Below are positions 1,997 to 15,016 of a stretch of 15,016 nt of DNA, piece after piece (position 1 is the stretch's first letter; each line of letters starts with the position of its first letter). Position numbers and translations under genes: made by a program. This stretch comes from Campylobacterales bacterium (GTDB lineage: Bacteria; Campylobacterota; Campylobacteria; Campylobacterales; Sulfurimonadaceae). A model generated the notes under the pieces. The model had not been told where the DNA came from, did not search any database, and worked only from the letters and a program-made list of their open reading frames with translations. The stretch spans positions 1-15,016 of the forward strand of contig JAFGVR010000145.1 of the NCBI GenBank assembly GCA_016937915.1, in the 5' to 3' direction.

Positions 1997-2041
1997 AGTA
2001 TAAAAGAATTTGGTTTCAAAACGATTACAAAGTGGTAACAA
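1997..2041 (-). promoter_or_regulatory. Predicted Pho-box promoter of pstS
   Basis: Read on the minus strand there are three 7-mers, TTGTTAC (2041-2035), TTGTAAT (2030-2024) and TTGAAAC (2019-2013), each separated by a 4-bp spacer and so repeating every 11 bp. Ten bases further on is TATACT (2002-1997), a good -10 element. Direct 7-mers with 11-bp periodicity in place of a -35 box, about 10 bp before the -10, is the layout of promoters activated by OmpR-family phosphate regulators (PhoB in enterics, PhosR in Campylobacter). The site is inferred from layout; the regulator is not in the window. Confidence 0.7.
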
Positions 2042-2078
2042 ACTTGTAACCGTTTTGTAATCGTCTATTTGATAAAAT
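2033..2078 (+). promoter_or_regulatory. Predicted Pho-box promoter of the porin gene
   Basis: On the plus strand the 7-mers TGGTAAC (2033-2039), TTGTAAC (2044-2050) and TTGTAAT (2055-2061) repeat every 11 bp with 4-bp spacers. They are followed after 11 bp by TAAAAT (2073-2078) as the -10. The geometry matches the pstS promoter on the opposite strand, and the two sets of half-sites overlap. The ribosome binding site AAGGAA (2095-2100) lies 9 nt before the porin ATG. Confidence 0.7.
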
Positions 2079-2109: not shown

Positions 2110-3405
2110 ATGATTAAAAAAATCGCACTATCAAGCCTAGTGGCTTTATCGATTGGTTTAGTTCCTGCAAATGCAGGTGAGTTAAAATTTTATACTGATG
2201 CAAACGGTCAGGTGTTTGTAACTCCAGGTGAGGGTCGTACACTTCTTCAAGCTGATCCGCAAGAGGTTATGAACGCAATGCAACAAGCTGCTTCAACTAC
2301 TGCTGCAATGAAAAAAGAGATAAAAGAGGAACTTAAAGAGGAGATAAAAAAAGATACTCCTGTTTTTGCTAAATCTTCAAAATTAAATTTCAGCGGTACA
2401 CATTATTTGGGTTATAACTATAAAAATATGAAACAAGGCGATGCTACAGGTAACTTTGAAATGCGTCGTAACTATGTTCAAGCAAAAGCTTATGTTCTAG
2501 ATGATCCAAAATCTTATTTGCGTGTAACTTTAGACAGTACTTATAGCAACTCTACTGCAAACGGTGAAGGTCATGCCAATGTTTATGTTAAATATGCTTA
2601 TCTTTACTTAAATGATATTCTTCCATATACTGGTATGGAGTTTGGTATGGCTCACCGTCCTTGGATAGATTACGAAGAGCATCAAGGTTGGTGGATGCGT
2701 TCTATCAGTAAAGTTTTTGTTGAAGCAAGTGAAGCATCTCACTTAACGAATTCAGCGGATCTTGGTGTTAACTTTAAAACTAAAACTCCATACTTTACTT
2801 CAGAAGTTGGTCTGTTTAACGGTGAAGGTTATCATGGTACAAATGATAATACAGGTACTAATGATGAAGAACTAGGTGATGGTAACTCTTTAGAGTGGAG
2901 ATTTACTGCAGCACTTTTAGGCAATGGTGATAAGAAAAGAAAAGCGACAAAAGATTCTTATGCTGACATCTCTTTCTTTGGACAGTTAAACTCTGATAAC
3001 TCACACAATGCTGATGCAGTTGGAAACTCTGAAGACTATAAATTTTATGGTATCCATGGTGTTTACAACACTCCAAACTTCTTAGTAGCTGCTCAGTATG
3101 TTAAATCTGATAATGATTTAATGATTGAAGATACTGATGATTGGAACGGTAAAGGTTTCTCTGTAAATGGTACAGTAAGATTTGGTGCTAAAAAAGAGTA
3201 TTCTGCTTTTGCTAGATATGATAAATGGGAAAATGAAACTACAGTATCAAATACAATTGAGACTGAAGAAAATTATATTTATGGTTTAGCTTGGCAACAA
3301 AACAAAAACTTCAAATGGTTACTTTCTGGTCAAACTTATGACATAAAAGAGAGTGATGCAAGTGATTGGAACTCTGTAATGCTTACAAGTGAAGTTCACT
3401 GGTAA
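2110..3405 (+). CDS. Outer-membrane porin, probably phosphate-starvation induced
   Basis: The 431-residue product starts with a signal peptide (1-22, ending VPANA before GE). After a short segment (KFYTDANGQVFVTPGEGR, 26-43), a charged helical stretch (about 48-82, EIKEELKEEIKKD) looks like a periplasmic coiled coil. From about residue 90 come alternating beta strands typical of a barrel, and the chain ends in EVHW, an aromatic C-terminus as the outer-membrane assembly machinery (BAM) recognises. This fits the general porins of Campylobacterota and resembles the OprO/OprP (phosphate-selective) group in build. It is divergent from pstS and its promoter carries Pho-box-like repeats, so diffusion of phosphate or other anions is a reasonable inference. 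Selectivity itself cannot be read from the sequence. A perfect hairpin terminator follows the gene. Confidence 0.85.
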   Translation: MIKKIALSSLVALSIGLVPANAGELKFYTDANGQVFVTPGEGRTLLQADPQEVMNAMQQAASTTAAMKKEIKEELKEEIKKDTPVFAKSSKLNFSGTHYLGYNYKNMKQGDATGNFEMRRNYVQAKAYVLDDPKSYLRVTLDSTYSNSTANGEGHANVYVKYAYLYLNDILPYTGMEFGMAHRPWIDYEEHQGWWMRSISKVFVEASEASHLTNSADLGVNFKTKTPYFTSEVGLFNGEGYHGTNDNTGTNDEELGDGNSLEWRFTAALLGNGDKKRKATKDSYADISFFGQLNSDNSHNADAVGNSEDYKFYGIHGVYNTPNFLVAAQYVKSDNDLMIEDTDDWNGKGFSVNGTVRFGAKKEYSAFARYDKWENETTVSNTIETEENYIYGLAWQQNKNFKWLLSGQTYDIKESDASDWNSVMLTSEVHW

Positions 3406-3440
3406 GATAATCTTTTTCATTTTATTTTTTCATTTTTTCA

Positions 3441-3470
3441 AGGCAGATTTTTTAAATCTGCCTCTCCTTT
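3441..3470 (+). terminator. Rho-independent terminator after the porin gene
   Basis: AGGCAGATTT (3441-3450) and AAATCTGCCT (3454-3463) form a perfect 10-bp stem with a TTT loop, 36 nt after the porin stop. The 3' side continues CTCCTTTT, a modest T-rich tail. It separates the porin transcript from the TonB operon and so supports an independent promoter for the latter. Confidence 0.7.
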
Positions 3471-3551
3471 TAACCTCTTTTTCAAACAATCTAATTATTA
3501 TAAAAACTTATGTATCTAAAATGTAATCAACAGCTGTTAAACTTCGGTATC

Positions 3552-3605
3552 AATGTAGTTGCACGACCATATAGATTTCTTTAACTTCCTCTATGCAACT
3601 ACATT
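3552..3605. repeat. Perfect 12-bp inverted repeat upstream of the TonB operon
   Basis: AATGTAGTTGCA (3552-3563) and TGCAACTACATT (3594-3605) are exact reverse complements separated by 30 bp, ending 14 bp before the first predicted Pho 7-mer of the operon promoter. It could be an operator for a second dimeric regulator, a hairpin, or the ends of a tiny mobile-element relic. No T-run follows, so it is not a terminator. The rest of 3471-3551 shows nothing I can name. Confidence 0.5.
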
Positions 3606-3619
3606 AACTACTACTAAAA

Positions 3620-3653
3620 TTGTCCCCAAACTGTAATCGTTTATAGATAAAAT
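3620..3653 (+). promoter_or_regulatory. Predicted Pho-box promoter of the TonB/receptor operon
   Basis: TTGTCCC (3620-3626) and CTGTAAT (3631-3637) are 7-mers with a 4-bp spacer, followed after 10 bp by TAAAAT (3648-3653). The block TGTAATCGT followed by a GATAAAAT -10 is shared almost letter for letter with the porin promoter (2056-2064 and 2071-2078). Only two 7-mers are clear, and the first deviates in its last three bases, so this site is weaker than the pstS and porin boxes. It predicts a transcript starting near 3660 and leaving a leader of about 60 nt. Confidence 0.55.
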
Positions 3654-3721
3654 CCACTTCATAAAGTATAGAAAATAAATCATATTTTTTGTTTTCGTAT
3701 ATGCAAGGAGAAGCAAATATA

Positions 3722-4483
3722 ATGCAGACTAAGTTTAAAAAAATAGTGTTATCAACAACTTGTTTGTTAGCATTAAATACCAGTACTCTAAATGGTGATG
3801 AAAGTTTTGACAATATGGTCAAATCTTTGATGGAGCTTCGTTCAGAGGTTGGGATGCTACACACTCAAATAAGTGAAAATAATGATGCTTACAAAAGTAA
3901 TATAAAATCACTCGAACTACAAAAAAATGACCTTGAAGCTCAGATAGGTAGAAAGTCAACATTTTTAAAAGAGGTTACTCAAGATATAGAGAAGATAAGA
4001 GAAGCTACAAAAGAGAACTCTAACTCTGGAGATGATTTAAAACCTCTTTTAGCTGAATCTATTGAGAAGTTGATTACTCATATAAAATCATCTTTGCCAT
4101 TTAAAACAGATGAGAGAGTAGCTGAACTTCAAAAGATAAAAGATCAGTTAGAAACTGGCAAAGTAACTCCACAAAGAGCATTGGCTCGTGTATGGAGTAA
4201 CTATGAGGATGCATTTCGTTTAACAAAAGAGAATGGTATCTTTAAAGATGTAATTGAACTTAACAATGAATCTATCTTGGTTGAAGTTGCAAAGGTTGGG
4301 ATGATGATGCTTTACTTTAAAACTCCTGATGATAGGGTTGGTTACTTAAAAGACTCAAAATTTACAGAGGTTAGTGATGAGAACACTAAAAAAGATATTT
4401 TAAATCTTTTTGATGCGATGAAAAAACAGATTCGTACAGGTTACTTTACACTGCCAAATACTCTAGCTATGGGGGCTAAATAA
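3722..4483 (+). CDS. DUF3450-family periplasmic coiled-coil protein
   Basis: First gene of the TonB operon, 253 residues from ATG 3722. The upstream in-frame ATGs at 3689 and 3701 are less likely: the one at 3701 overlaps the AAGGAG ribosome binding site (3705-3710), and only the 3722 start puts a signal peptide (MQTKFKKIVLSTTCLLALN) at the N-terminus. A long coiled coil (about 30-105) is followed by the conserved part of DUF3450: LPFKTDERVAELQ, then VSN/WSNYEDAFRLTKENG-like helices, and VGMMMLYFKTPDDRVGYL. The family's biochemical role is unknown, but it recurs at the head of TtpC-type TonB operons, so it probably helps the energising complex in the periplasm. Its stop overlaps the next ATG by one base (TAATG), indicating translational coupling. 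Confidence 0.8.
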   Translation: MQTKFKKIVLSTTCLLALNTSTLNGDESFDNMVKSLMELRSEVGMLHTQISENNDAYKSNIKSLELQKNDLEAQIGRKSTFLKEVTQDIEKIREATKENSNSGDDLKPLLAESIEKLITHIKSSLPFKTDERVAELQKIKDQLETGKVTPQRALARVWSNYEDAFRLTKENGIFKDVIELNNESILVEVAKVGMMMLYFKTPDDRVGYLKDSKFTEVSDENTKKDILNLFDAMKKQIRTGYFTLPNTLAMGAK

Positions 4484-5793
4484 TGAAGAAAATATTACTT
4501 TTAGCGTTTTTTATAACTACTCTTGTTGCTTCACAAAATGATACACAGCTTATGCTTGCATACCAAAAAGAGTTCGCATTTTTAAAAGCTCAAAAAGAGT
4601 CACTTAAAACTCAACTAAGCAAACTTGAATCTCGTCACTCTAAAACTATAAATAAAGCAAAAGATGATGTAGAAAAACTTCAAAACACACTCCTTGGATA
4701 TAACATAAAGATAGAGGAAGCTCAAAAAAATCTACATCAGATGCAACTAAAAAAAGATGTTATGGATGATGATACAGCTATGGTTGAGACTGTTAAGATG
4801 CAGATGAAATCATCTCTAAAAACAAACGGTTCATCTTTAGATGAAGATAAAGACCCAATAGTTACTTTAAAAAATGGATTTAACCAAAGTATAAATCGTT
4901 TAGGTGAGTTAGAGAGTGTAGTTACAACTGATGGTTTTTTTCACCTAAAAGATGGGAAAAGAGTTGATGGAAAGATTATCCACATAGGTAATGTAGCAGC
5001 TTATGGTATATCAGATGAGTTTAGCGGGGCTTTAGCACCAGCTGGAAACAATGTTTTAAAAGTTTGGCCTGAGTTAGAGAGTACTGCAACTGCAATGGCA
5101 CTTAAATCTAATCAAACTCCACAGAAGTTAAATATATTTATTTATGAGTCTTTAGAAAAAGAGATAGAGTATGCAAAAGAGAAAACTTTAGAGGATTTTC
5201 TAGCATCTGGTGGGCTTGTTGGTTACTCTATCGTTGGTCTTGGTCTATTTGCTGTTTTACTTATAATTATCCGCATCGTACTACTTAGTTCTGCAAATAG
5301 TAAAACAGAAAATATCATAAGAGGCATCGAAGCTGATGTTGAGCTTGGAAATATAGATGAAGCACTATCTGTTGCATCGTCATACAAAGGCTCAACTGCT
5401 CGTGTTATGCAAGCAGTTCTTAAAAATATCCGTAAAAACCGTGAACATATAGAAGATATAGTTATGGAAAATATCTTAAATGAGAGTACAAGACTAGACA
5501 GATACAACGCATTTATACTAGTTATCGCAGCAGTGGCACCTTTACTTGGTCTTTTGGGAACTGTTACAGGTATGATATCTACATTTGACATCATCACTGA
5601 ACACGGAACAGGGGATCCTAAACTGTTAGCTGGTGGTATATCTGAAGCACTTGTTACAACAGAGCTTGGTCTTATAGTAGCTATCCCTGCACTTTTAGCT
5701 GGAAATATCCTTATGGGATGGAGTAGAAATATTAAAGATTCTATGGAAGAGAACGCTCTTCGCATCGTAAATATCTACAATAAAAACAGATAA
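4483..5793 (+). CDS. TtpC-like MotA/TolQ/ExbB family protein with periplasmic coiled-coil domain
   Basis: A 436-residue, two-part protein. Residues 1-17 are a signal-like segment (MKKILLLAFFITTLVAS), followed by a long coiled coil (about 22-110). Next is a small periplasmic region containing FFHLKDGKRVDG (152-163) and GAL/APAGNNVLKVWPE (182-198). Three membrane segments follow (about 244-269, 342-366, 389-413). The last two carry the MotA/TolQ/ExbB proton-channel signature APLLGLLGTVTGMISTFD and the helix GISEALVTTELGLIVAIP. This build matches TtpC, which in Vibrio works with a separate ExbB, ExbD and TonB2 to energise outer-membrane receptors. A normal short ExbB follows directly, as in those systems. 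The periplasmic part may reach towards the DUF3450 coiled coil; this is inference. Confidence 0.88.
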   Translation: MKKILLLAFFITTLVASQNDTQLMLAYQKEFAFLKAQKESLKTQLSKLESRHSKTINKAKDDVEKLQNTLLGYNIKIEEAQKNLHQMQLKKDVMDDDTAMVETVKMQMKSSLKTNGSSLDEDKDPIVTLKNGFNQSINRLGELESVVTTDGFFHLKDGKRVDGKIIHIGNVAAYGISDEFSGALAPAGNNVLKVWPELESTATAMALKSNQTPQKLNIFIYESLEKEIEYAKEKTLEDFLASGGLVGYSIVGLGLFAVLLIIIRIVLLSSANSKTENIIRGIEADVELGNIDEALSVASSYKGSTARVMQAVLKNIRKNREHIEDIVMENILNESTRLDRYNAFILVIAAVAPLLGLLGTVTGMISTFDIITEHGTGDPKLLAGGISEALVTTELGLIVAIPALLAGNILMGWSRNIKDSMEENALRIVNIYNKNR

Positions 5794-5801
5794 GAAAAAC
5801 T

Positions 5802-6404
5802 ATGACTGAGTTACTCAATCAATTTATAGGGTATATGCAAGGGGGTGGTTATGTTATGTGGCCACTCTTCTTTGCAAATATGATTCTTTGGTATGGACTT
5901 GCATACCGCTACATAGTTATGCAAAGAGGTCGTAAAAAGAGTGCTAGAGTGCTTATAGATTCACATATGAAAAAAGGTGAAAACAAAAAGCAAAAAGGTA
6001 TTTTAGATATGGTTATACACGATTCGATAAAGGTGTATAAAGAGATGAAAGATAATCCAAATCTTCGTGATTATATACAAAGTGCTCAGTACCCTTATAT
6101 AAGAGAGGTTAAGAAGTTCTCTATAATAGTTACAACTATCATTATTTTAGCTCCCCTTATAGGTTTACTTGGAACTGTTATAGGGATGATAGAGACTTTT
6201 GATTCTTTGGGCTCATCAACACTTTTTAGTCAAGGCGGAGGGATAGCCGGTGGTATCTCCCAAGCACTTTTTACTACTCAGCTGGGTCTTATAGTAGCGG
6301 CTCCTGGACTAGTTTTAGGGCGAATGCTAGATAAAAAACAACAAAATTTAGAGCTTGAGTTTGAACAGGTAAAAGATATTTTAAGTACAAGAGAAGGGAA
6401 ATAG
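5802..6404 (+). CDS. exbB: ExbB, TonB-system proton channel subunit
   Basis: A 200-residue ExbB/TolQ-family protein of the short type found in TtpC systems. Three membrane helices are visible (about 16-38, 105-131, 155-176). The second has APLIGLLGTVIGMIETFDSL and the third GISQALFTTQLGLIVAAPG, which line the proton path with ExbD. The cytoplasmic loop between helices 1 and 2 is about 65 residues. With ExbD it converts proton motive force into movement of TonB. It starts 8 nt after the TtpC-like gene, with no strong Shine-Dalgarno (only AAGAAAAA), and its stop abuts the exbD start, so translation is probably coupled along the operon. Confidence 0.93.
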   Translation: MTELLNQFIGYMQGGGYVMWPLFFANMILWYGLAYRYIVMQRGRKKSARVLIDSHMKKGENKKQKGILDMVIHDSIKVYKEMKDNPNLRDYIQSAQYPYIREVKKFSIIVTTIIILAPLIGLLGTVIGMIETFDSLGSSTLFSQGGGIAGGISQALFTTQLGLIVAAPGLVLGRMLDKKQQNLELEFEQVKDILSTREGK

Positions 6405-6809
6405 ATGAGATTTAGAAATAAAAGTGATGAAGTACAAAATATAGATATATCTCCACTAATAGATATGGTGTTTATCTTACTTATCTTTTTTATGGTTAGT
6501 TCAACTTTTGTAAAAGATATGAAACTAGAACTAAACCGTCCAACTGCTAGTAGTTCTACAAAAGCATCTGCAAAAGTTATCCGTGTATATATCGATAGCT
6601 ATGGTGATACTTATGTGGATAACCAACAAGTAAAACAGTGGGCTATCCAAAACAAGGTTAGAGACCTTTTACATGTTTCTTTGGAAAAAAGTGTCCTTGT
6701 TATCACAGATGATGGAGTTGAAGCTCAAAAGCTTATAGATGTGGTTGATCAGTGCCGTTTAGCTGGGGCGAAAGATTTAGCAGTTTCAACACAACATGAA
6801 GCAGGATGA
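6405..6809 (+). CDS. exbD: ExbD, TonB-system proton channel subunit
   Basis: A 134-residue ExbD/TolR protein. The N-terminus (NIDISPLIDMVFILLIFFMV) has the family's single membrane helix with the essential membrane Asp at residue 20. A periplasmic domain follows (about 45-134) with the peptide-binding-like fold expected for the family (VIRVYIDSYGDTYVDNQQV, then VLVITDDGVEAQKLIDVVD). It starts immediately after the exbB stop, at zero spacing, and its end overlaps possible starts of tonB. It forms the ion-conducting core with ExbB. Confidence 0.93.
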   Translation: MRFRNKSDEVQNIDISPLIDMVFILLIFFMVSSTFVKDMKLELNRPTASSSTKASAKVIRVYIDSYGDTYVDNQQVKQWAIQNKVRDLLHVSLEKSVLVITDDGVEAQKLIDVVDQCRLAGAKDLAVSTQHEAG

Positions 6810-6813
6810 GAAA

Positions 6814-7452
6814 GTGAACAGTAAGATATTTGCTTTTAAGCATCTGTTCGCCATTTTTGGGATGCTTTTAGGTACTTTTTTTCTCCTTTTGATAGCTGTA
6901 TTTATGAACCAAAAAGAGCAATATGAAAAAGATGAAAAAAAAGTGTTCGCAACTTCTATAGATGTAGCACCTACGCAAAAACCAAAACCAAAGCCTAAAC
7001 CAAAACAAGAGCCAAAACCAAAACCAAAAAGCTCGCCAAAAATGGCACCAGCTGCAAACCTTGGTGGAGCGTTGGCTGGGATAGATTTGGGACTCCCTGA
7101 GTTTGGCATCGGTGAGTTTGAGATAAGTGACAACATGGTTGGTGATGTTGATAAAAACCTTGTCATGACAGCATCTACCGTTGATGAGCCACCTAAACCA
7201 ACTAGCAGAGTTGGCATCGAGTACCCAAAAGATGCTAAAAACAAAGGGATCAAGGGGTATGTGGTTTTTAATATTTTAATAGATAAAGCGGGAAATGTAA
7301 CTGAGATGCAGATACTTGAATCAGTTCCAAGTGGTATCTTTGATCAGGCAGCATCTGACTCTGTATCTCAGTGGAAGTTCTCACCTGCAAAATACAAAAA
7401 CGAAGCGGTAAAAGTTTGGGCAAAACAGAAAATCCGTTTTGATTTAGAATAA
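6814..7452 (+). CDS. tonB: TonB energy-transducing protein
   Basis: TonB links the inner-membrane motor to the outer-membrane receptor. The product has one N-terminal membrane helix (LFAIFGMLLGTFFLLLIAVF), then a Lys-Pro repeat linker (KPKPKPKPK...EPKPKPKSSPK) that spans the periplasm. A C-terminal TonB domain follows, with YPKDAKNKGIKGYVVFNILI, AGNVTEMQILES, FDQAASDSVSQWKFSP and a terminal IRFDLE. I prefer the GTG start at 6814 (212 aa) because AGGATGAG lies at ideal distance upstream. The ATG at 6796 (218 aa) has no ribosome binding site and sits inside exbD. With GTG, the gene starts 4 nt after the exbD stop and the ribosome binding site includes that stop codon. It lies in the operon with its own receptor, so it is probably dedicated rather than the cell's general TonB. 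Confidence 0.93.
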   Translation: MNSKIFAFKHLFAIFGMLLGTFFLLLIAVFMNQKEQYEKDEKKVFATSIDVAPTQKPKPKPKPKQEPKPKPKSSPKMAPAANLGGALAGIDLGLPEFGIGEFEISDNMVGDVDKNLVMTASTVDEPPKPTSRVGIEYPKDAKNKGIKGYVVFNILIDKAGNVTEMQILESVPSGIFDQAASDSVSQWKFSPAKYKNEAVKVWAKQKIRFDLE

Positions 7453-7463
7453 AAGAGTTGTAA

Positions 7464-8594
7464 ATGAAGAAAATAATATTATTGATACTTATCATAAATT
7501 CATTGCTTGTAGCTAAAGAGAGTGAAAAAGTAAGCCTTATGGGTCTTGCAGCTTTACTTATAAAAGATGGTTACTATCAGCGTGCAAATACAACTCTTGA
7601 CGAAGTGGATACTACTGCCAAAAAATTTGATTTTATCCATTACTACAACCTTAGAGGTTTTGTGGCGGTGAAGATAAAAGAGTATGAAAAAGCTGTTGAG
7701 TATTTTACAAAATCTATAAAATACGGAAATCAAGACCTAAATACATACCTGTATATAGCCGAAGCAAACTATAGAATGAAAAAATACAAAGAGGCGATAG
7801 AGTCATACGACAAAGCTAAAGATGCAATCAACTCAAACGAGCATCACTACTCTGTAAAGATAGATTGTTACTGGAAACTAAAAAACTATAACGCTACTCT
7901 TGAGACTTTAGATGCAGCTTATAAAGCGTTCCCAAAACAGTACAACTTTTTAAAGCAGAAGTTTTTTTACTTAGTTCAGCTTGAACTTTTTCAAAGTGCA
8001 AAAGATGAGGCACAAAGATATATAGCTATAGCAAATCCAGATGCAAAAACATACCTTCACATAGCAAAAGCGTTTAAAAATGCTGGAGAGAATAAAGAGG
8101 CTATCAAGCTTTTAGAAAAAGCACAGCTTAGTATCCATGATGCAAAACTTGTAGCATTTTTGGCTTACTTGTATATCGAAGAGGGTGAACTCTATAGTGC
8201 AGCTAATCTTTTTGATAAAGCTTCTATTTATGAGCAAAGTTTTTCAGGTTCAGCATCTGAGATATACAGAAAAGTACAGGCTTATACTCAAGCTTTATAT
8301 GCAAACTCAAAGATTTTGGATGTAAAAGAGAAACTAAAACAAAAGATATCTATATTTTTGGAGTTTGGAGAGTTTGAAAAAGTTGTAGCTTTGGAAGATA
8401 TGTTAGATAGAACTGCACTTTTAGAAAATGAGGATATACGCTACGCTTTAGCTTATGCATACTTTAAAACAGAAGATTACAAAGAGGCTGAATATCACTT
8501 AAAACGATTGACTAGAAATGACTTGTTCCAAAAATCTATATCTCTTAGAAAGAGTATGGAGCAGTGTAAAGAAGATATATGGGAGTGTAGATGA
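7464..8594 (+). CDS. Secreted TPR-repeat protein of the TonB operon
   Basis: 376 residues with an N-terminal signal peptide (MKKIILLILIINSLLVA). The rest is a chain of helical hairpins typical of tetratricopeptide repeats, for example HYYNLRGFVAVKIKEYEKAV (59-78), NTYLYIAEANYRMKKYKEAI (93-112), KTYLHIAKAFKNAGENKEAI (195-214) and YALAYAYFKTEDYKEAEYHL further on. TPR proteins act as scaffolds. A TPR gene in this position, after tonB, is a standing part of TtpC-type TonB clusters, though its job there is not well defined. Its likely place is the periplasm, holding the TonB complex or receptor. It begins 11 nt after tonB and its stop overlaps the receptor start (ATGA), so the pair is translationally coupled. 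Confidence 0.85.
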   Translation: MKKIILLILIINSLLVAKESEKVSLMGLAALLIKDGYYQRANTTLDEVDTTAKKFDFIHYYNLRGFVAVKIKEYEKAVEYFTKSIKYGNQDLNTYLYIAEANYRMKKYKEAIESYDKAKDAINSNEHHYSVKIDCYWKLKNYNATLETLDAAYKAFPKQYNFLKQKFFYLVQLELFQSAKDEAQRYIAIANPDAKTYLHIAKAFKNAGENKEAIKLLEKAQLSIHDAKLVAFLAYLYIEEGELYSAANLFDKASIYEQSFSGSASEIYRKVQAYTQALYANSKILDVKEKLKQKISIFLEFGEFEKVVALEDMLDRTALLENEDIRYALAYAYFKTEDYKEAEYHLKRLTRNDLFQKSISLRKSMEQCKEDIWECR

Positions 8595-11500
8595 AGTTAA
8601 ATCTTATAAAATATATGATGCTTTTGTTGTTGCCAGTTTTAGCAGCAGCGGCATCTATGGGGGAGTTACAGCTTTTTGTATTTAAAGATGGTAAACCTGT
8701 GAGCAACAACGAGGTTATCATAGATGCAACCTCTAAATTTAAAACAGATAGTGATGGTTATCTTTCTCATAGATTAGAAGTTGGAGTGCATCAGCTTCAG
8801 ATAATCTCTAAAGATAAAGATAATAAAAATCTAGCTTATCTAAAAAAGAGTTTTACGATAGTTGAGTCTAAAAGTACACAGCTACTTGTAACTTTAAAAG
8901 AGAATGAGAAGATAGTAACAAATACAGAGATGCCAGAGGGGTTTGAAGATTCAAACACAACAGCTAAAAAAGATATAGTAGAGAAAAAACTTGGTTTTGC
9001 AAAAGTTGTATTTAAAGTTTTATCTTCTGAAGATAAAAAACCTATAGCAGATGCAAGAGTGTTTGTAAAAGGGAGTGATACGGACGGTGTGAGTGACAAA
9101 GATGGTGTTATCACCTTAAATGTTGAGGAGGGGATAAAGACTTTCTCTATCATCCACTCAAAGTTTAGTTCACGCACTATAAGCGATATAAATATAACTG
9201 CAGATGCGACATTAGAGCAAACTATAGAGTTAACACCTGCAAGTATGGAGCTTGAAGAGTTTATAGTTTTAGCACCTAGCATCGAGGGCACTGTAGCATC
9301 TGTTATGATGGAGGAGAAGAAGTCAACTTCAGTTACAAACATACTTAGTTCTGAGCAGATGAGTAAAAAGGGTGATGGCAACGCAGCGGCTGCACTAAAA
9401 AGGGTAGCTGGTCTTACTCTAGTAGATGGTAAAAATGTATATGTAAGAGGTCTTGGTGAGAGATACTCAAATGTAGAGATGAACGGTTTACCTCTTCCAA
9501 GCCCAGACCCAACCAAGCGTGTAGTTCCACTTGATATTTTCCCATCTAATGTGATTGGGAGTTTAAAGGTTCAAAAAAGTGCAACAGCAGATATCCCAGC
9601 ATCGTTTGGTGGTGGATATATCGATGTAAGAACTAAAAATGCAAAATCTAGTGACTATATGAAAATATCACTAGGGCTTGGAGGAAACTCAAACACTGGT
9701 AAAAGTGTATATGAGTATGAGGGTAGTAAAGATGATTGGAGTGGATATGATGATGGTTATAGAGATATAAGTCCAACAATATTTCAATACTATAATCTTG
9801 AAGATGGTCTTGCATCTGGACTTAATGATGAGCAAAATAAAGAGCTTTTACAAAGTTATATAAACAGAAAGTTCAATTTTGAGAAAAATTCTTTGCCTAT
9901 GAATTTTAGTGCTGGTTTTGAGAGTGTACAAAACTTTTCAATTGGCAGTGAAGATGATTTGACATTATCTTTTAACTATGAGTACTCACAAAAGCACAAG
10001 TATAGAAAAGATGAGAAGTGGGGTTATAACTATAACGAGGTAGCCAATTCTTATGATGACAATGCTATAAAAGATGGTTTTACTGAACAAACTACATCTA
10101 CATATTCTCATGGTGGGATGATAAACTTAGCTTATAATCCATTTGATTTTCTAAATCTTAAATGGACAACTATGTATATGCTTGATAGTGAAAAACTAAC
10201 TAAATTTACTCAAAATAACGATTATCAAAACAACGAGTATGTAAATATATACAATTTAAACTGGGAAGAGAGGGAACTTTTTGTAAATCAACTCAGCCTA
10301 GCTTATAAATATAGTTTGTTTGAAAAAGATGCAGAGTTTGATTTTGCCATAGAGAGAGCTAGTACAGAGCTTAATCAACCTGGTAACTATGAGTATCTAT
10401 ATGCAGTACCAGAGGGATTGAGTGATATATATGCAGTAGATATGAGAAGTGATAACCATAAGATGAGTTTGCTAAATTCAAAAGATGATGTTGATGCTTT
10501 TATGTTTAAAAACAAGCAGTTTTTAGAACTTTTAAGTGAAGAGGATTATTTAGAGTTTGGTTATAAAAAATCTACTAAAAATAGAGATACTACCAACTAT
10601 AACTTTAGACTTGATGAGACAAATGAATATAATATTAATACCTACATATATACAGATATTGATACTTTGTATGAGGAGCAGATATTATCAGATATAGATG
10701 CAGCAGATATGAATTTTGTATTCTCTGCAAATACAAACGATGCTTCAAACTTTGTGGCAACTGTTGAGGATAATACAAAATTTGTATCATTAGGGTTAAA
10801 TCCTATTGAGGATCTAAGTGTTATGTACGGTATGCAGTTTGTAGATCTTGTTCAAAGCATCAGAGTTAAAACTTCTACAGAATCTGAGAGTTTTGAGTTA
10901 AAAGAATCTTTTCCTAGTTTGAATTTAAAATATCGTTTAGATGAGGATAATATATTTGATATAGCAACATCTACTACCTACATAGTGCCGGATTTGAGAG
11001 AGTTCTCTGCTGGTTCATTTACCCACCCATACGAAGCGGCTACTATCTTAGGTGGTAACACTGAAGCTGTAAGAACAAAAGCAGCAGGTGGAAGATACCT
11101 TGATTATACTGAGATAAAAAATTATGATTTTCAGTATAGTCACTATTTCTCATCTAAAGAGAACATGAAATTTTCACTCTTTTACAAAGAGATGCAACGC
11201 CCTATAGAGGATGTCAGACTTCAGCCAAATGGTCCAAGGGAACAATATACATTTGTAAATACTAAAGAGGCAAAACTAAAAGGTTTTGAGATAGATTTTA
11301 GAAAATATTTTGATTTTATCTCAGAATGTTATGAGAACTTTTATCTATCTGGTAACTACTCATATAACGATTCTGAAGTTAAACTCTATGAAGATCAGAC
11401 AGATTATTTTACAACAAACAACAGACCACTTCAAGGTTTGTCAAAAACTGTAATAAATATGACATTTGGTTATGAAAATGATGATGAATCGATAGTCCTT

Positions 11501-11755
11501 GTTTATAATAAAATGGGTGAGAGGATAAGAATGGTTGGAACTAATGACTCATCTGATAAGCAGATGGATACGATAGAGATTCCAGCTCAAGTCCTTGATT
11601 TTGTATGGAGTACAAAACTAAGCAATGGTATAGGTTTAAAACTTAAACTTCAAAATATTTTAGATGAAGAGACCATCTGGATGACTGGTGATAAAATAAT
11701 AAGAAGTTATAAAAAAGGTAAAGCTTACTCACTCTCAGCATCTTATAAATTTTAG
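8591..11755 (+). CDS. TonB-dependent outer-membrane receptor, substrate unknown (predicted Pho-controlled)
   Basis: The last and largest operon gene, 1054 residues. A signal peptide (about 1-20) is followed by two small carboxypeptidase-regulatory-like (Ig-fold) domains: about 26-102, with FKDGKPVSNNEVIIDATSKF, and about 136-217, with SSEDKKPIADARVFVKGSD. A likely TonB box, LEEFIVLAPS, is at 221-230. The plug (about 245-348) carries AAALKRVAGLTLVDGKNVYV, RGLGERYSNVEMNGLPLPSP and LDIFPSNVIGSLKVQKSATA, then GGGYIDVRT. The beta barrel ends in SLSASYKF with the terminal Phe expected for BAM insertion. The receptor imports a ligand too large or scarce for porins using TonB energy. Operon position shows which TonB it uses. 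The predicted Pho promoter suggests a phosphorus-containing ligand, but this is inference; siderophore or other uptake is not excluded. Confidence 0.9.
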   Translation: MKLNLIKYMMLLLLPVLAAAASMGELQLFVFKDGKPVSNNEVIIDATSKFKTDSDGYLSHRLEVGVHQLQIISKDKDNKNLAYLKKSFTIVESKSTQLLVTLKENEKIVTNTEMPEGFEDSNTTAKKDIVEKKLGFAKVVFKVLSSEDKKPIADARVFVKGSDTDGVSDKDGVITLNVEEGIKTFSIIHSKFSSRTISDINITADATLEQTIELTPASMELEEFIVLAPSIEGTVASVMMEEKKSTSVTNILSSEQMSKKGDGNAAAALKRVAGLTLVDGKNVYVRGLGERYSNVEMNGLPLPSPDPTKRVVPLDIFPSNVIGSLKVQKSATADIPASFGGGYIDVRTKNAKSSDYMKISLGLGGNSNTGKSVYEYEGSKDDWSGYDDGYRDISPTIFQYYNLEDGLASGLNDEQNKELLQSYINRKFNFEKNSLPMNFSAGFESVQNFSIGSEDDLTLSFNYEYSQKHKYRKDEKWGYNYNEVANSYDDNAIKDGFTEQTTSTYSHGGMINLAYNPFDFLNLKWTTMYMLDSEKLTKFTQNNDYQNNEYVNIYNLNWEERELFVNQLSLAYKYSLFEKDAEFDFAIERASTELNQPGNYEYLYAVPEGLSDIYAVDMRSDNHKMSLLNSKDDVDAFMFKNKQFLELLSEEDYLEFGYKKSTKNRDTTNYNFRLDETNEYNINTYIYTDIDTLYEEQILSDIDAADMNFVFSANTNDASNFVATVEDNTKFVSLGLNPIEDLSVMYGMQFVDLVQSIRVKTSTESESFELKESFPSLNLKYRLDEDNIFDIATSTTYIVPDLREFSAGSFTHPYEAATILGGNTEAVRTKAAGGRYLDYTEIKNYDFQYSHYFSSKENMKFSLFYKEMQRPIEDVRLQPNGPREQYTFVNTKEAKLKGFEIDFRKYFDFISECYENFYLSGNYSYNDSEVKLYEDQTDYFTTNNRPLQGLSKTVINMTFGYENDDESIVLVYNKMGERIRMVGTNDSSDKQMDTIEIPAQVLDFVWSTKLSNGIGLKLKLQNILDEETIWMTGDKIIRSYKKGKAYSLSASYKF

Positions 11756-11895: not shown

Positions 11896-13449
11896 ATGAC
11901 AAGTACACAGCAAAGAGCTGAATTACAACGACAAATATGGCAAATAGCAAATGAAGTAAGAGGCTCAGTTGATGGATGGGATTTTAAGCAGTATGTTTTA
12001 GGTACTTTGTTTTATAGATTTATTAGTGAAAACTTTTCAAATTATATAGAGGCTGGAGATGAAAGCATCGATTATGCTTCATTATCTGATGATGTTATAA
12101 CTCCAGAGATTAAAGATGATGCCATAAAAACAAAAGGTTACTTCATCTATCCAAGTCAACTATTTGTAAATGTTGCTAAAAATGGAAATGACAATCCTGA
12201 TTTAAACACAGATTTAAAAGCTATATTTGGTGATATAGAAGCAAGTGCAAACGGCTATCCATCAGAACAAGACATTAAAGGACTTTTTGCAGATTTTGAT
12301 ACAACAAGCAACAGACTAGGGAATACGGTAAAAGATAAAAACAGTAGATTATCGTCTGTACTCAAAGGTGTTGCAGGTCTAAATTTTGGAAAATTTGAAG
12401 AGAATCATATAGATCTTTTTGGTGATGCTTATGAGTTTCTTATCTCAAACTATGCAGCAAATGCAGGTAAATCTGGAGGAGAGTTTTTTACTCCTCAAAG
12501 TGTTTCAAAACTTATCGCTCAACTAGCGATGCACAAACAAGAGAAAGTAAATAAAATCTACGACCCCGCCGCAGGTTCTGGCTCACTACTTCTACAAGCA
12601 AAGAAACAATTCGATGACCATATTGTAGAAGATGGTTTTTTTGGTCAAGAAATAAATCACACTACTTACAACCTTGCTCGTATGAATATGTTTTTACATA
12701 ATATCAACTATGATAAATTTAACATAGCTTTAGGCAATACTCTCATAGACCCACATTATGGAGATGATAAACCATTTGATGCTATTGTCTCTAACCCTCC
12801 ATATTCTGTAAACTGGGAAGGTAGTGATAATCCTCTATTGATAAACGATGATAGATTTGCACCTGCTGGAGTTCTTGCCCCAAAATCAAAAGCAGATTTT
12901 GCATTTGTGCTTCATTGTTTGAGTTACCTTTCGCCTAAAGGAAGAGCGGCGATAGTATGTTTCCCTGGTATTTTCTATCGAGGTGGGGCAGAAGCAAAGA
13001 TACGAAAATATTTAGTTGATGGTAACTATGTAGAAACTGTAATTTCCCTTGCTCCAAATCTATTTTTTGGAACATCGATAGCTGTCAATATCTTGGTACT
13101 TTCAAAACATAAAACAGACAATAAAACACAGTTTATCGATGCAAGTGAACTTTATAAAAAACAGACCAATAACAATATCTTAACTTATGAGGGTGAAAAC
13201 AACCATATAGACCAAATTATGAAAGTGTTTGATAGCAAAGCTGACATCGCTCATTTTGCTAAGTGTGTGGATAATGAGACAATAGCCGACAATGACTATA
13301 ATCTCTCTGTTAGCTCGTATGTAGAAGCAAAAGACACAAGAGAAAAAGTAGATATAAATAAACTTAATAGTGAACTTAAAACTACTGTTTCAAAGATAGA
13401 CAATCTAAGAAGTGAGATAGATAAAATCGTAGCGGAGATTGAAGCATGA
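11896..13449 (+). CDS. hsdM: Type I restriction-modification system, DNA methyltransferase subunit HsdM
   Basis: 517 residues, a normal HsdM length. The N-terminal helical domain (about 5-160, with [10 protein letters not shown] and [13 protein letters not shown]) is the HsdM_N type. The N6-adenine methyltransferase core has [17 protein letters not shown] (195-211), the SAM-binding motif [13 protein letters not shown] (223-234) and the catalytic NPPY (300-303, in SNPPYSVNW). A C-terminal coiled-coil tail (about 475-517) is expected to contact HsdS. It methylates adenine within the site chosen by HsdS and, with HsdR, forms the restriction enzyme. HsdR is not in the window. The last bases overlap the next ORF (ATGA), so rhuM and hsdS are probably co-transcribed and translationally coupled with it. 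Confidence 0.95.
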
Positions 13450-14492
13450 ACAAAAAAGATAATCACATCACAATAAGAAGCAGTGCCGCGGAGTATTTAA
13501 CTTTTGCAGCCTCTACAAATGCAGCAAATGAAAATATAGAAATAAGATACGAAGATGAAAATCTATGGCTTACACAAAAACTTATAGCACAGCTCTATGA
13601 TGTTGAAGTCAATACTATCAACTATCATATCAAAAAAATATTTGCAGATAATGAGCTGGAAGAAAATTCAGTTATTCGAAAATTTCGAATAACTGCAAAT
13701 GATGGTAAAACCTACAACACACAACACTATAACCTTTCTATGATTATCGCTATTGGGTTTAAAGTAGATAATGAAAAAGCTGTACAGTTTAGAAAATGGG
13801 CAAATAATATCATCAATGAATACACCATCAAAGGCTTTAGTATGGATGATGAGAGGCTTAAAAATGATGGTTCGGTTTTAACTAAAAAATATTTTGAAGA
13901 GCAACTAACACGAATCAGAGAGATTAGGCTAAGTGAGCGAAAGTTTTATCAAAAAATCACAGATATTTATGCCACTTCTATTGATTATGATGTCTCATCC
14001 ACTGCAACCAAAAGATTTTTTGCAACAGTACAAAACAAACTTCATTGGGCAATCCACGGACAAACAGCCGCAGAAGTGGTTTATAATCGTGCCGATGCTG
14101 GGAAAGAAAATATGGGATTAAACTCATGGAGCGATGCACCAAATGGCAAAATACAAAAATTTGATGTAACCGTTGCAAAAAACTACCTAAATGATAAAGA
14201 GTTGGCAAGCCTGCAAAGACTGGTGAGTGCTTATCTTGATTTGGCAGAAGATATGGCTCAAAGAGAGATACCCATGACCATGAGCGATTGGGAGTTTAGA
14301 CTAAATAAATTTATCGAAGCAACAGATAGAGAGATACTAAATGATAGTGGCAAAATAAGTGCCGAAATAGCAAAAGCCCATGCCCTAAGCGAGTTTGAAA
14401 AATATAGAGTAATTCAAGACAAAAACTATCTATCTGATTTTGATAGACAAGTAGCTTTTTTAGAAAATAACCAAAGTAGTGAAGATGAGTAA
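13446..14492 (+). CDS. rhuM: RhuM-family protein lodged between hsdM and hsdS
   Basis: 348 residues of the virulence RhuM family. The first third is the usual winged-helix-like part: [20 protein letters not shown], then [25 protein letters not shown] and [20 protein letters not shown]. The C-terminal part carries the conserved [20 protein letters not shown], then NMGLNSW and the [22 protein letters not shown] blocks. The family is named after a Salmonella pathogenicity-island gene, has no settled activity, and is often found inside type I restriction loci. The first 25 residues ([17 protein letters not shown]) look like an extra lead-in. It overlaps hsdM by 4 nt and hsdS by 8 nt, so it is a fixed operon member rather than a random insertion. 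A 27-bp near-perfect palindrome lies in its coding sequence at 13669-13695. Confidence 0.88.
13669..13695. repeat. 13-bp-arm palindrome inside rhuM
   Basis: CAGTTATTCGAAA (13669-13681) and TTTCGAATAACTG (13683-13695) are exact reverse complements around a single A. The coding meaning is the conserved SVIRKFRIT stretch. A hairpin with no spacer of this length is uncommon in coding DNA and could mark a protein-binding site or an mRNA hairpin. Confidence 0.6.
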
Positions 14493-15016
14493 TATAAAAG
14501 AACTTCTTGAGGGTGTAGATGTTGAGTGGAAGCCTTTATCAGATGAGAATAATCCAGTTGCAGAATTAAGGCGAGGTAGAGTAATGTCTAAAACTTACCT
14601 TACTGAAAATATTGGTGATTATCCTGTATATAGTTCACAAACTGCAAATAATGGAGAAATTGGAAAAATTGATACATTTGACTTTGATGGAGAATTTGTT
14701 AGTTGGACAACAGATGGAGCCAATGCTGGAACAGTTTTTTATAGAACGGGTAAGTTTTCTATTACTAATGTTTGTGGGCTTATAAAAATTAACAATGAAA
14801 CAGAATTAAACTATAAATTTTTATTTTATTGGTTATCTATTGAAGCTAAAAAACATGTTTATTCAGGAATGGGAAACCCTAAGCTAATGAGTCATCAGGT
14901 TTCTAAAATTCCAATTCCGATAATACCTTTACATATCCAAAGTGAAATTGTCCGAATTTTGGACAATTTCACAGAGCTTACAGCAGAGCTTACAGCAGAG
15001 CTTACAGCACGAAAAA
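14485..15016 (+). CDS. hsdS: Type I restriction-modification specificity subunit HsdS, cut by window edge
   Basis: From ATG 14485, overlapping the end of rhuM by 8 nt, 177 residues are visible and the frame is open at the edge. Residues 1-140 form the first target recognition domain in the usual HsdS style: VEWKPLSDE, a TYLTENIGDYPVYSSQTANN block and VSWTTDGANAGTVFYRTGKF. NPKLMSHQVSKIPIPIIPLH leads into the central conserved helix QSEIVRILDNFTELTAELTA. This helix holds three ELTA repeats, a known spacer between the two target domains in type I enzymes of the EcoR124 kind. HsdS chooses the DNA sequence that HsdM methylates. The second target domain and the end are outside the window. Confidence 0.93.
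   Translation, partial: MSNIKELLEGVDVEWKPLSDENNPVAELRRGRVMSKTYLTENIGDYPVYSSQTANNGEIGKIDTFDFDGEFVSWTTDGANAGTVFYRTGKFSITNVCGLIKINNETELNYKFLFYWLSIEAKKHVYSGMGNPKLMSHQVSKIPIPIIPLHIQSEIVRILDNFTELTAELTAELTARK
14944..14970. repeat. Perfect 10-bp palindrome in hsdS central region
   Basis: GAAATTGTCC (14944-14953) and GGACAATTTC (14961-14970) are exact reverse complements around GAATTTT. They encode EIVRILDNF, the conserved helix just before the repeat array. It could be a recombination or hairpin site, or a by-product of coding a conserved helix. Confidence 0.6.
14974..15009 (+). repeat. Three tandem 12-bp repeats (ELTA) in hsdS
   Basis: GAGCTTACAGCA occurs three times in exact tandem (14974-14985, 14986-14997, 14998-15009), in frame, encoding ELTA each time. 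The unit length is a multiple of three, so gain or loss of a unit keeps the frame and changes the distance between the two target recognition domains. Confidence 0.9.

Follow-up and report, generated by a model that had tools for sequence, protein, structure and literature searches.

We analysed a stretch of 15,016 nucleotides from a Campylobacterales bacterium of the Sulfurimonadaceae (GenBank assembly GCA_016937915.1, contig JAFGVR010000145.1), hereafter the window, which is the whole of contig C40 in an assembly of 1.5 Mb and 270 contigs that is 63% complete. Its plus strand carries an operon of seven genes (3722-11755) which probably serves to import a phosphorus compound across the outer membrane, driven by TonB through a motor of its own and controlled by phosphate starvation. 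Neighbouring genes overlap or are separated by at most 11 bp. The first gene (3722-4483) encodes a DUF3450 protein resembling TtpB (PF11932, 106.7 bits). It is followed by a TtpC-like protein of 436 residues (4483-5793), which combines an ExbB-type channel domain (PF01618, MotA_ExbB) with a long N-terminal part and is 35.6% identical over 205 residues to the TtpC of Vibrio campbellii (E 8e-33). Next come ExbB (5802-6404, 200 residues, PF01618), ExbD (6405-6809, PF02472), TonB (6796-7452, PF03544), a protein regarded as TtpD-like from its TPR families and its position in the operon (7464-8594) and a TonB-dependent receptor of 1054 residues with Plug (PF07715) and CarboxypepD_reg-like domains (8591-11755). 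The order of the first six genes is identical to that of the six-gene TonB2 operon of Vibrio vulnificus, ttpB2-ttpC2-exbB2-exbD2-tonB2-ttpD2, where TtpB is the DUF3450 protein and TtpD the one with TPR repeats (PMC6957404; this and the other papers cited by accession are drawn on through excerpts). The V. campbellii locus, which is homologous, has the same order. Gene order and the homology of TtpB and TtpC place the machine among the TtpC-type TonB systems, represented in Vibrio by TonB2 and TonB3. Close packing, Pfam and NCBIfam assignments and the Vibrio gene order together bear out the initial annotation of this DNA as encoding a TonB machine of the TtpC type along with a dedicated receptor.

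The receptor matched the family TIGR01782 (TonB-Xanth-Caul) with 187.4 bits, below the curated cut-off of 310, and was not assigned to that subfamily. No SusD-like family was found among the window proteins scanned with Pfam and NCBIfam, and the sole match in a profile search of the PDB was the N-terminal domain of RagA. The stretch encoded at 9239-9277 (plus strand), ASMELEEFIVLAP, was almost invariant in alignments of 16 and 54 receptors and is likely to be the TonB box; truncated or interrupted receptors, among them L013, L014 and L029, were kept out of receptor alignment A1. The tonB gene of the operon was the sole TonB_C match in this incomplete assembly, while nine receptor-bearing relatives had 3 to 6.

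Upstream of the operon lie two divergent genes. The minus-strand gene is pstS, encoding the phosphate-binding protein (961-1965; TIGR00975, 312.9 bits, above the cut-off). The plus-strand gene (2110-3405) is inferred to encode a porin-like outer-membrane protein. The initial annotation had called it a passive porin; homologues in relatives agree with this, among them a 69% identical protein beside the operon in L029, but no Pfam or NCBIfam family matched at E 0.001, so that the label depends on the relatives.

The promoters of both genes and of the operon contain pho boxes. Before pstS (1997-2029, minus strand) the site had one mismatch to the full pattern, a promoter score of 29.6 and the -10 sequence TATACT; before the porin-like gene (2045-2078, plus strand) both boxes were free of mismatches and the score was 23.3, with a spacing longer by one base. 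Two plus-strand sites precede the operon. Site A (3511-3543) reads TGTATCT-N4-TGTAATC-N9-TAAACT and scored 15.8; site B (3621-3653), the one initially annotated, reads TGTCCCC-N4-TGTAATC-N9-TAAAAT and scored 14.7. In both, 9 bp separate the boxes from the -10 sequence. Site A, which the initial annotation had missed, was the top-scoring site of the 250 bp upstream, slightly above site B, and its score was reached by 0 of 500 shuffles. When 3472-3721 was shuffled 2000 times with dinucleotides preserved, no shuffle reached the score of site B, and hence none that of site A. A Pho box has been described as two or more 11-bp repeats (PMC4415409), and at least two such repeats lie before the operon. 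The four-box array typical of most relatives was not found there (44 of 500 shuffles reached the score). The spacing of 10 bp to the -10 sequence originally given holds in the register then used, with the 7-mers one base further left. The promoter geometry said to be shared by the three promoters is right within 1 bp, the spacing being identical for pstS and one base longer for the porin-like gene, and the shared core TGTAATCGT is present in all three (operon site, pstS and porin-like gene). Between sites A and B we noted an inverted repeat with perfect 12-bp arms (3552-3563 and 3594-3605), an RNA fold z-score of -3.8 and no run of T after it.

The presence of the 7-mer pattern before orthologous operons had been set beforehand as a test on which phosphate control could fail. 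We trained a box model on 29 pstS promoters, 28 of them from the 30 loci of the genus and one from L014. A site was obtained for 28 of the 29, L050 giving none and being excluded from the box counts. The 56 training boxes have the consensus TGTAAYC, with 4 bp between boxes and 9 bp to a TATAMT-like -10 sequence. A rigid 33-bp promoter matrix was dropped in favour of this 7-mer model, since promoters with extra boxes scored badly with it (L015, L017, L018, L022 and L023 fell below zero). The model was applied to the 250 bp before the operon in the window and in 18 orthologous loci, L016 being excluded as it lies on the same contig as L030. These operon promoters were outside the training set, several genomes having supplied both a training pstS promoter and a test operon. 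A two-box score of at least 12.5 was found before 14 of the 19 operons of this Sulfurimonas type, the window among them, whereas none of the 13 other TtpC-type operons of the phylum reached it (Fisher p 2.5e-5). At 14 of 19 loci (L014, L018-L022, L024-L030 and L032) the operon was preceded by an array of four boxes spaced at 11-bp steps, and none of 500 shuffles scored as high; these four-box counts are descriptive, as the arrays had been seen by eye before the model was built. The control operons were added later. A strong two-box site lies before the operon of L011. In L015 and L017 the boxes had been hidden by wrong start codons, and arrays appeared when the stretch was corrected. None of 121 genes inside these operons reached a promoter score of 14, which was reached by 21 of the 53 remaining genes that have 60 bp or more upstream. 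When 17 of these 21 were run against Pfam, 16 proved to be transporter permeases at the pstC position, porins, PHO4 permeases or OmpR-type regulators, and one was a PHP-domain protein.

The control operons came from a distinct class. Matches to DUF3450 above about 80 bits in 397 genomes of the phylum fell into a high class of 217-257 bits (18 places in 17 genomes) and a low class of 85-113 bits (20 places in 20 genomes). The low-class genomes are exactly the 20 genomes that have this receptor; the DUF3450 gene and the receptor gene lie a few kb apart in 19 of them and on separate contigs in G392. The 13 control operons, taken from 12 of the 17 high-class genomes, lacked the boxes, their two-box scores not exceeding 3.3 and their promoter scores not exceeding 7.4, and gave no BLAST match to this receptor within the stretch read. 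Eight of their neighbours were scanned: a FeoB protein and a haemoglobin/transferrin-type receptor scored above the cut-offs, four were nearest to the TonB-siderophore family, one above and three below the cut-off, and two were unrelated. One contig (C7 of G407, L111) holds tandem TtpC-type operons at 3399-8071 and 11442-16215, each beside a siderophore- or haem-type receptor. The named contigs with TtpC belong to Sulfurimonas, Sulfurovum and other Campylobacterota. In a TtpC tree of 37 rows, which included 12 of the 13 control operons and left out the partial L031, the 21 rows of the present type split from all others with support 100/100. The DUF3450-TtpC operons of Campylobacterota thus comprise at least two types, distinguishable by score, tree and promoter.

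The receptor was also linked to phosphate genes. It was present in 10 of 60 relatives and, at E 1e-60, in 20 of the 397 phylum genomes; pstS was found in 130 of these and both genes in 15. In 11 of the 15 the receptor and pstS lie on one contig within 15 kb of each other (2.2 to 14.2 kb), and in the other four on different contigs. A PHO4 permease gene lies 3' of the receptor in three Sulfurovum loci (L015, L017 and L018). OmpR-type regulator genes occupy the 3' side in several loci; their best homologue in the source genome (51% identity) is the regulator encoded after PhoU on contig C47. Among the part of the neighbours that was scanned with Pfam, the PHP protein of L017 was the only phosphoesterase-like match. 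In the window the receptor is followed by a type I restriction locus (11896-15015), with hsdM (TIGR00497), a RhuM-family gene (PF13310) and an HsdS-like fragment truncated at the contig end; it stands where several relatives have OmpR-type regulators.

Searching the whole assembly for the full pattern with at most two mismatches gave 9 places, and searching for its reverse gave 0; the corresponding figures in two relatives were 8 against 2 (G030) and 8 against 0 (G008). The nine include the pstS site and operon sites A and B. Another, on C47, precedes genes for two ABC permeases, an ATPase, PhoU, an OmpR-type regulator (8093-8764) and a kinase, that is, a pstCAB-phoU-regulator-kinase operon; the same contig carries genes for a PHO4 permease (2298-3884) and a phosphonate-binding-type periplasmic protein (5806-6651). 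Two places lie back to back on C86 (908-975), between a kinase gene and a putative EAL/GGDEF gene, the latter identified by reading only. A place with one mismatch falls within a Na/Pi cotransporter gene of C228 (3095-3127), and the remaining two are on C145 and C172.

In relatives the operon is preceded by a gene whose product comprises between one and three units, each some 310 residues long, and usually has a lipobox. In L028 this gene (14979-17210) holds a masked or unsequenced run, seen as X in the translation. None of six proteins scanned had a Pfam match, and a profile search of the PDB gave one match at chance level (E 0.21); homologues belong to the precomputed family PF28492 and bear names such as right-handed parallel beta-helix protein (8 of 15 proteins entered our alignment A2). 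At E 1e-30 the protein was found in 18 of the 397 genomes, all within the 20 receptor genomes (Fisher p 3e-29). The source genome has one too, encoded on C86, where other small genes and then the contig end precede its gene. A four-box score of at least 20 was found before 6 of 13 beta-helix genes of relatives. In Sphingomonas a homologue (41% identity over 201 residues) precedes a homologue of the receptor (31% over 372 residues) and gsp genes; a homologue on a Marinobacter plasmid had no receptor or Ttp genes annotated nearby.

A comparable assemblage was found in Alteromonadales. The TtpC gene is 3.5 to 5.1 kb away from the beta-helix homologue in 12 of 12 records common to two plasmid searches, among the matches listed (20 in each). 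On plasmid pBGP9 of Alteromonas macleodii a single row comprises phoR, pstS, an oxygenase gene, the beta-helix gene, the receptor gene (29% identity over 910 residues to the window receptor) and a full Ttp operon encoding DUF3450, TtpC, ExbB, ExbD, TonB and TPR proteins. Boxes of the E. coli type at 11-bp steps precede both the DUF3450 gene and the beta-helix gene in pBGP9 and in Pseudoalteromonas CF6-2; the four two-box scores were reached by 0, 1, 0 and 0 of 500 shuffles. Such boxes were absent before both receptor genes and directly before the Alteromonas pstS (108 of 500), upstream of which no array stood out. In four control stretches the lowest shuffle counts were 20 and 23 of 500, for three and four boxes before asd. 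Unlike the window operon, the three Alteromonadales rows group in the TtpC tree with Vibrio and the other Campylobacterota operons and not with the Sulfurimonas type.

Ttp motors serving iron, TonB receptors in Pho regulons and ElpS/FI proteins are already known. Our searches of an open-licence full-text library, judged from listings, starts of abstracts and excerpts, found no paper that joins a Ttp motor to phosphate. The Vibrio TonB2 operon is induced by iron limitation, whereas the window operon has a receptor within it and pho boxes before it; the V. campbellii stretch read has no receptor of this kind beside the operon. In Caulobacter, where PhoB controls several TonB receptors (PMC11208175), the order elpS-cc0171-gsp pairs ElpS (CC0170), a surface protein of the beta-helix family made under phosphate starvation, with the TonB receptor CC0171, as here (PMC2996285); homology to this arrangement was judged through the Sphingomonas locus. 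The Caulobacter pair differs in adjoining type II secretion genes and in the constitutive expression reported for cc0171. The PUS clusters of Flavobacterium (PusCD, FI/FII) combine CarboxypepD_reg-like TonB receptors with FI-type lipoproteins and are induced by low phosphate, FI-FIII being induced by phosphate starvation (PMC8115612). They differ in having phosphatases, phosphodiesterases and partly SusD-like proteins alongside, and the excerpts of that paper do not mention a Ttp motor.

With its phosphate-starvation boxes and its place among phosphate genes, the operon most likely imports a phosphorus compound. Under low phosphate, a PhoB/PhosR-type regulator from the pstCAB-phoU-regulator-kinase operon would bind the 11-bp tandem boxes and turn the operon on. 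TtpC, ExbB and ExbD would couple the proton gradient to TonB, assisted by the accessory proteins TtpB and TtpD as in Vibrio, and TonB would pull on the receptor so that a phosphorus-containing ligand enters the periplasm for uptake by PstSCAB or a PHO4 permease. The beta-helix protein of the ElpS/FI kind is probably the partner at the cell surface, capturing the ligand or processing it. As porin-like genes are already present at these loci, we consider phosphate in bound form, either organic or held by a metal, a likelier ligand than free phosphate. By analogy with the late Pho genes of E. coli, the weaker boxes in several copies suggest that the operon acts in deeper starvation than pst.

Several observations weigh against this interpretation. 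In Caulobacter the receptor gene cc0171 beside elpS was constitutively expressed, and intracellular phosphate showed no detected change (PMC2996285). The boxes before the window operon are degenerate and weak, two per site, with scores under those of pstS and the porin-like gene; when the stretch with site A is excluded (3551-3721), the score of site B is reached by 2 of 2000 shuffles. Among orthologues, the L023 operon had no clear site in its 250 bp upstream under the box model, and the arrays of L015 and L017 are weak, with 1 and 4 of 500 shuffles scoring as high. Five of the 20 receptor genomes lack a pstS match and two (G078 and G264) lack the beta-helix protein; in the source genome the beta-helix gene does not adjoin the operon and encodes no evident lipobox. 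The degeneracy, the shuffle result and the missing four-copy array would fit boxes that arose by chance or have decayed, this copy being no longer phosphate-controlled. We regard this as very unlikely in view of the two sites with exact 9-bp spacing, the absence of the reversed pattern from an assembly with nine places, and the boxes before orthologous operons. The phosphate control first proposed for this TtpC-type machine is instead supported by those boxes, by the linkage to pst, PHO4 and OmpR-type regulator genes and by the Alteromonas cassette beside phoR and pstS.

The operon might alternatively be an iron system for a siderophore or haem, like Vibrio TonB2, with pstS nearby only by coincidence. 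Characterised Ttp systems do serve iron (PMC6957404), the related CF6-2 cassette lies beside fhuF and a siderophore receptor gene and not beside pst, and tonB-exbB-exbD of a Pseudoalteromonas chromid is mentioned among iron genes (PMC8496264). A Fur-like pattern, not genus-specific, was however no commoner in the window than expected by chance (6 against a shuffle mean of 3.2, with 22 of 200 shuffles reaching 6); none occurred between 3420 and 3721, the nearest (3405-3419) having 3 mismatches. Together with the pst linkage, the boxes and the fully supported separation of these TtpC proteins from those beside iron genes, this makes an iron function improbable. Phosphate control could also serve another cargo, such as a metal, vitamin or carbon compound needed in phosphate starvation. 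The ligand of the receptor cannot be read from its sequence, and modelling likens the beta-helix partner to proteins that act on polysaccharides (PMC8115612). The repeated linkage to phosphate transporters at loci of different genera argues against such a cargo, which we consider unlikely, and for the import of a phosphorus compound.

One further feature of the window, at about 470-930 on the minus strand, consists of short frames resembling a broken PIN-domain toxin-antitoxin pair, as judged from the sequence alone.

The occurrence of the assemblage in Campylobacterota and Alteromonadales leads us to lean slightly towards a cross-phylum phosphorus importer, in which the Ttp motor itself is wired to phosphate starvation together with a receptor and a beta-helix surface protein. 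As the two groups have different TtpC lineages, a motor type known from iron uptake may have been recruited for phosphorus repeatedly; with a midpoint root and a program warning of long branches, the tree is compatible with one or two recruitments. If our interpretation is right, Sulfurimonas, Sulfurovum and their relatives possess an energy-driven route for phosphorus across the outer membrane, and TtpC-type motors are not specific to iron. The ElpS/FI proteins, which are strongly induced by phosphate starvation, would then gain a concrete machine in which their role can be tested.

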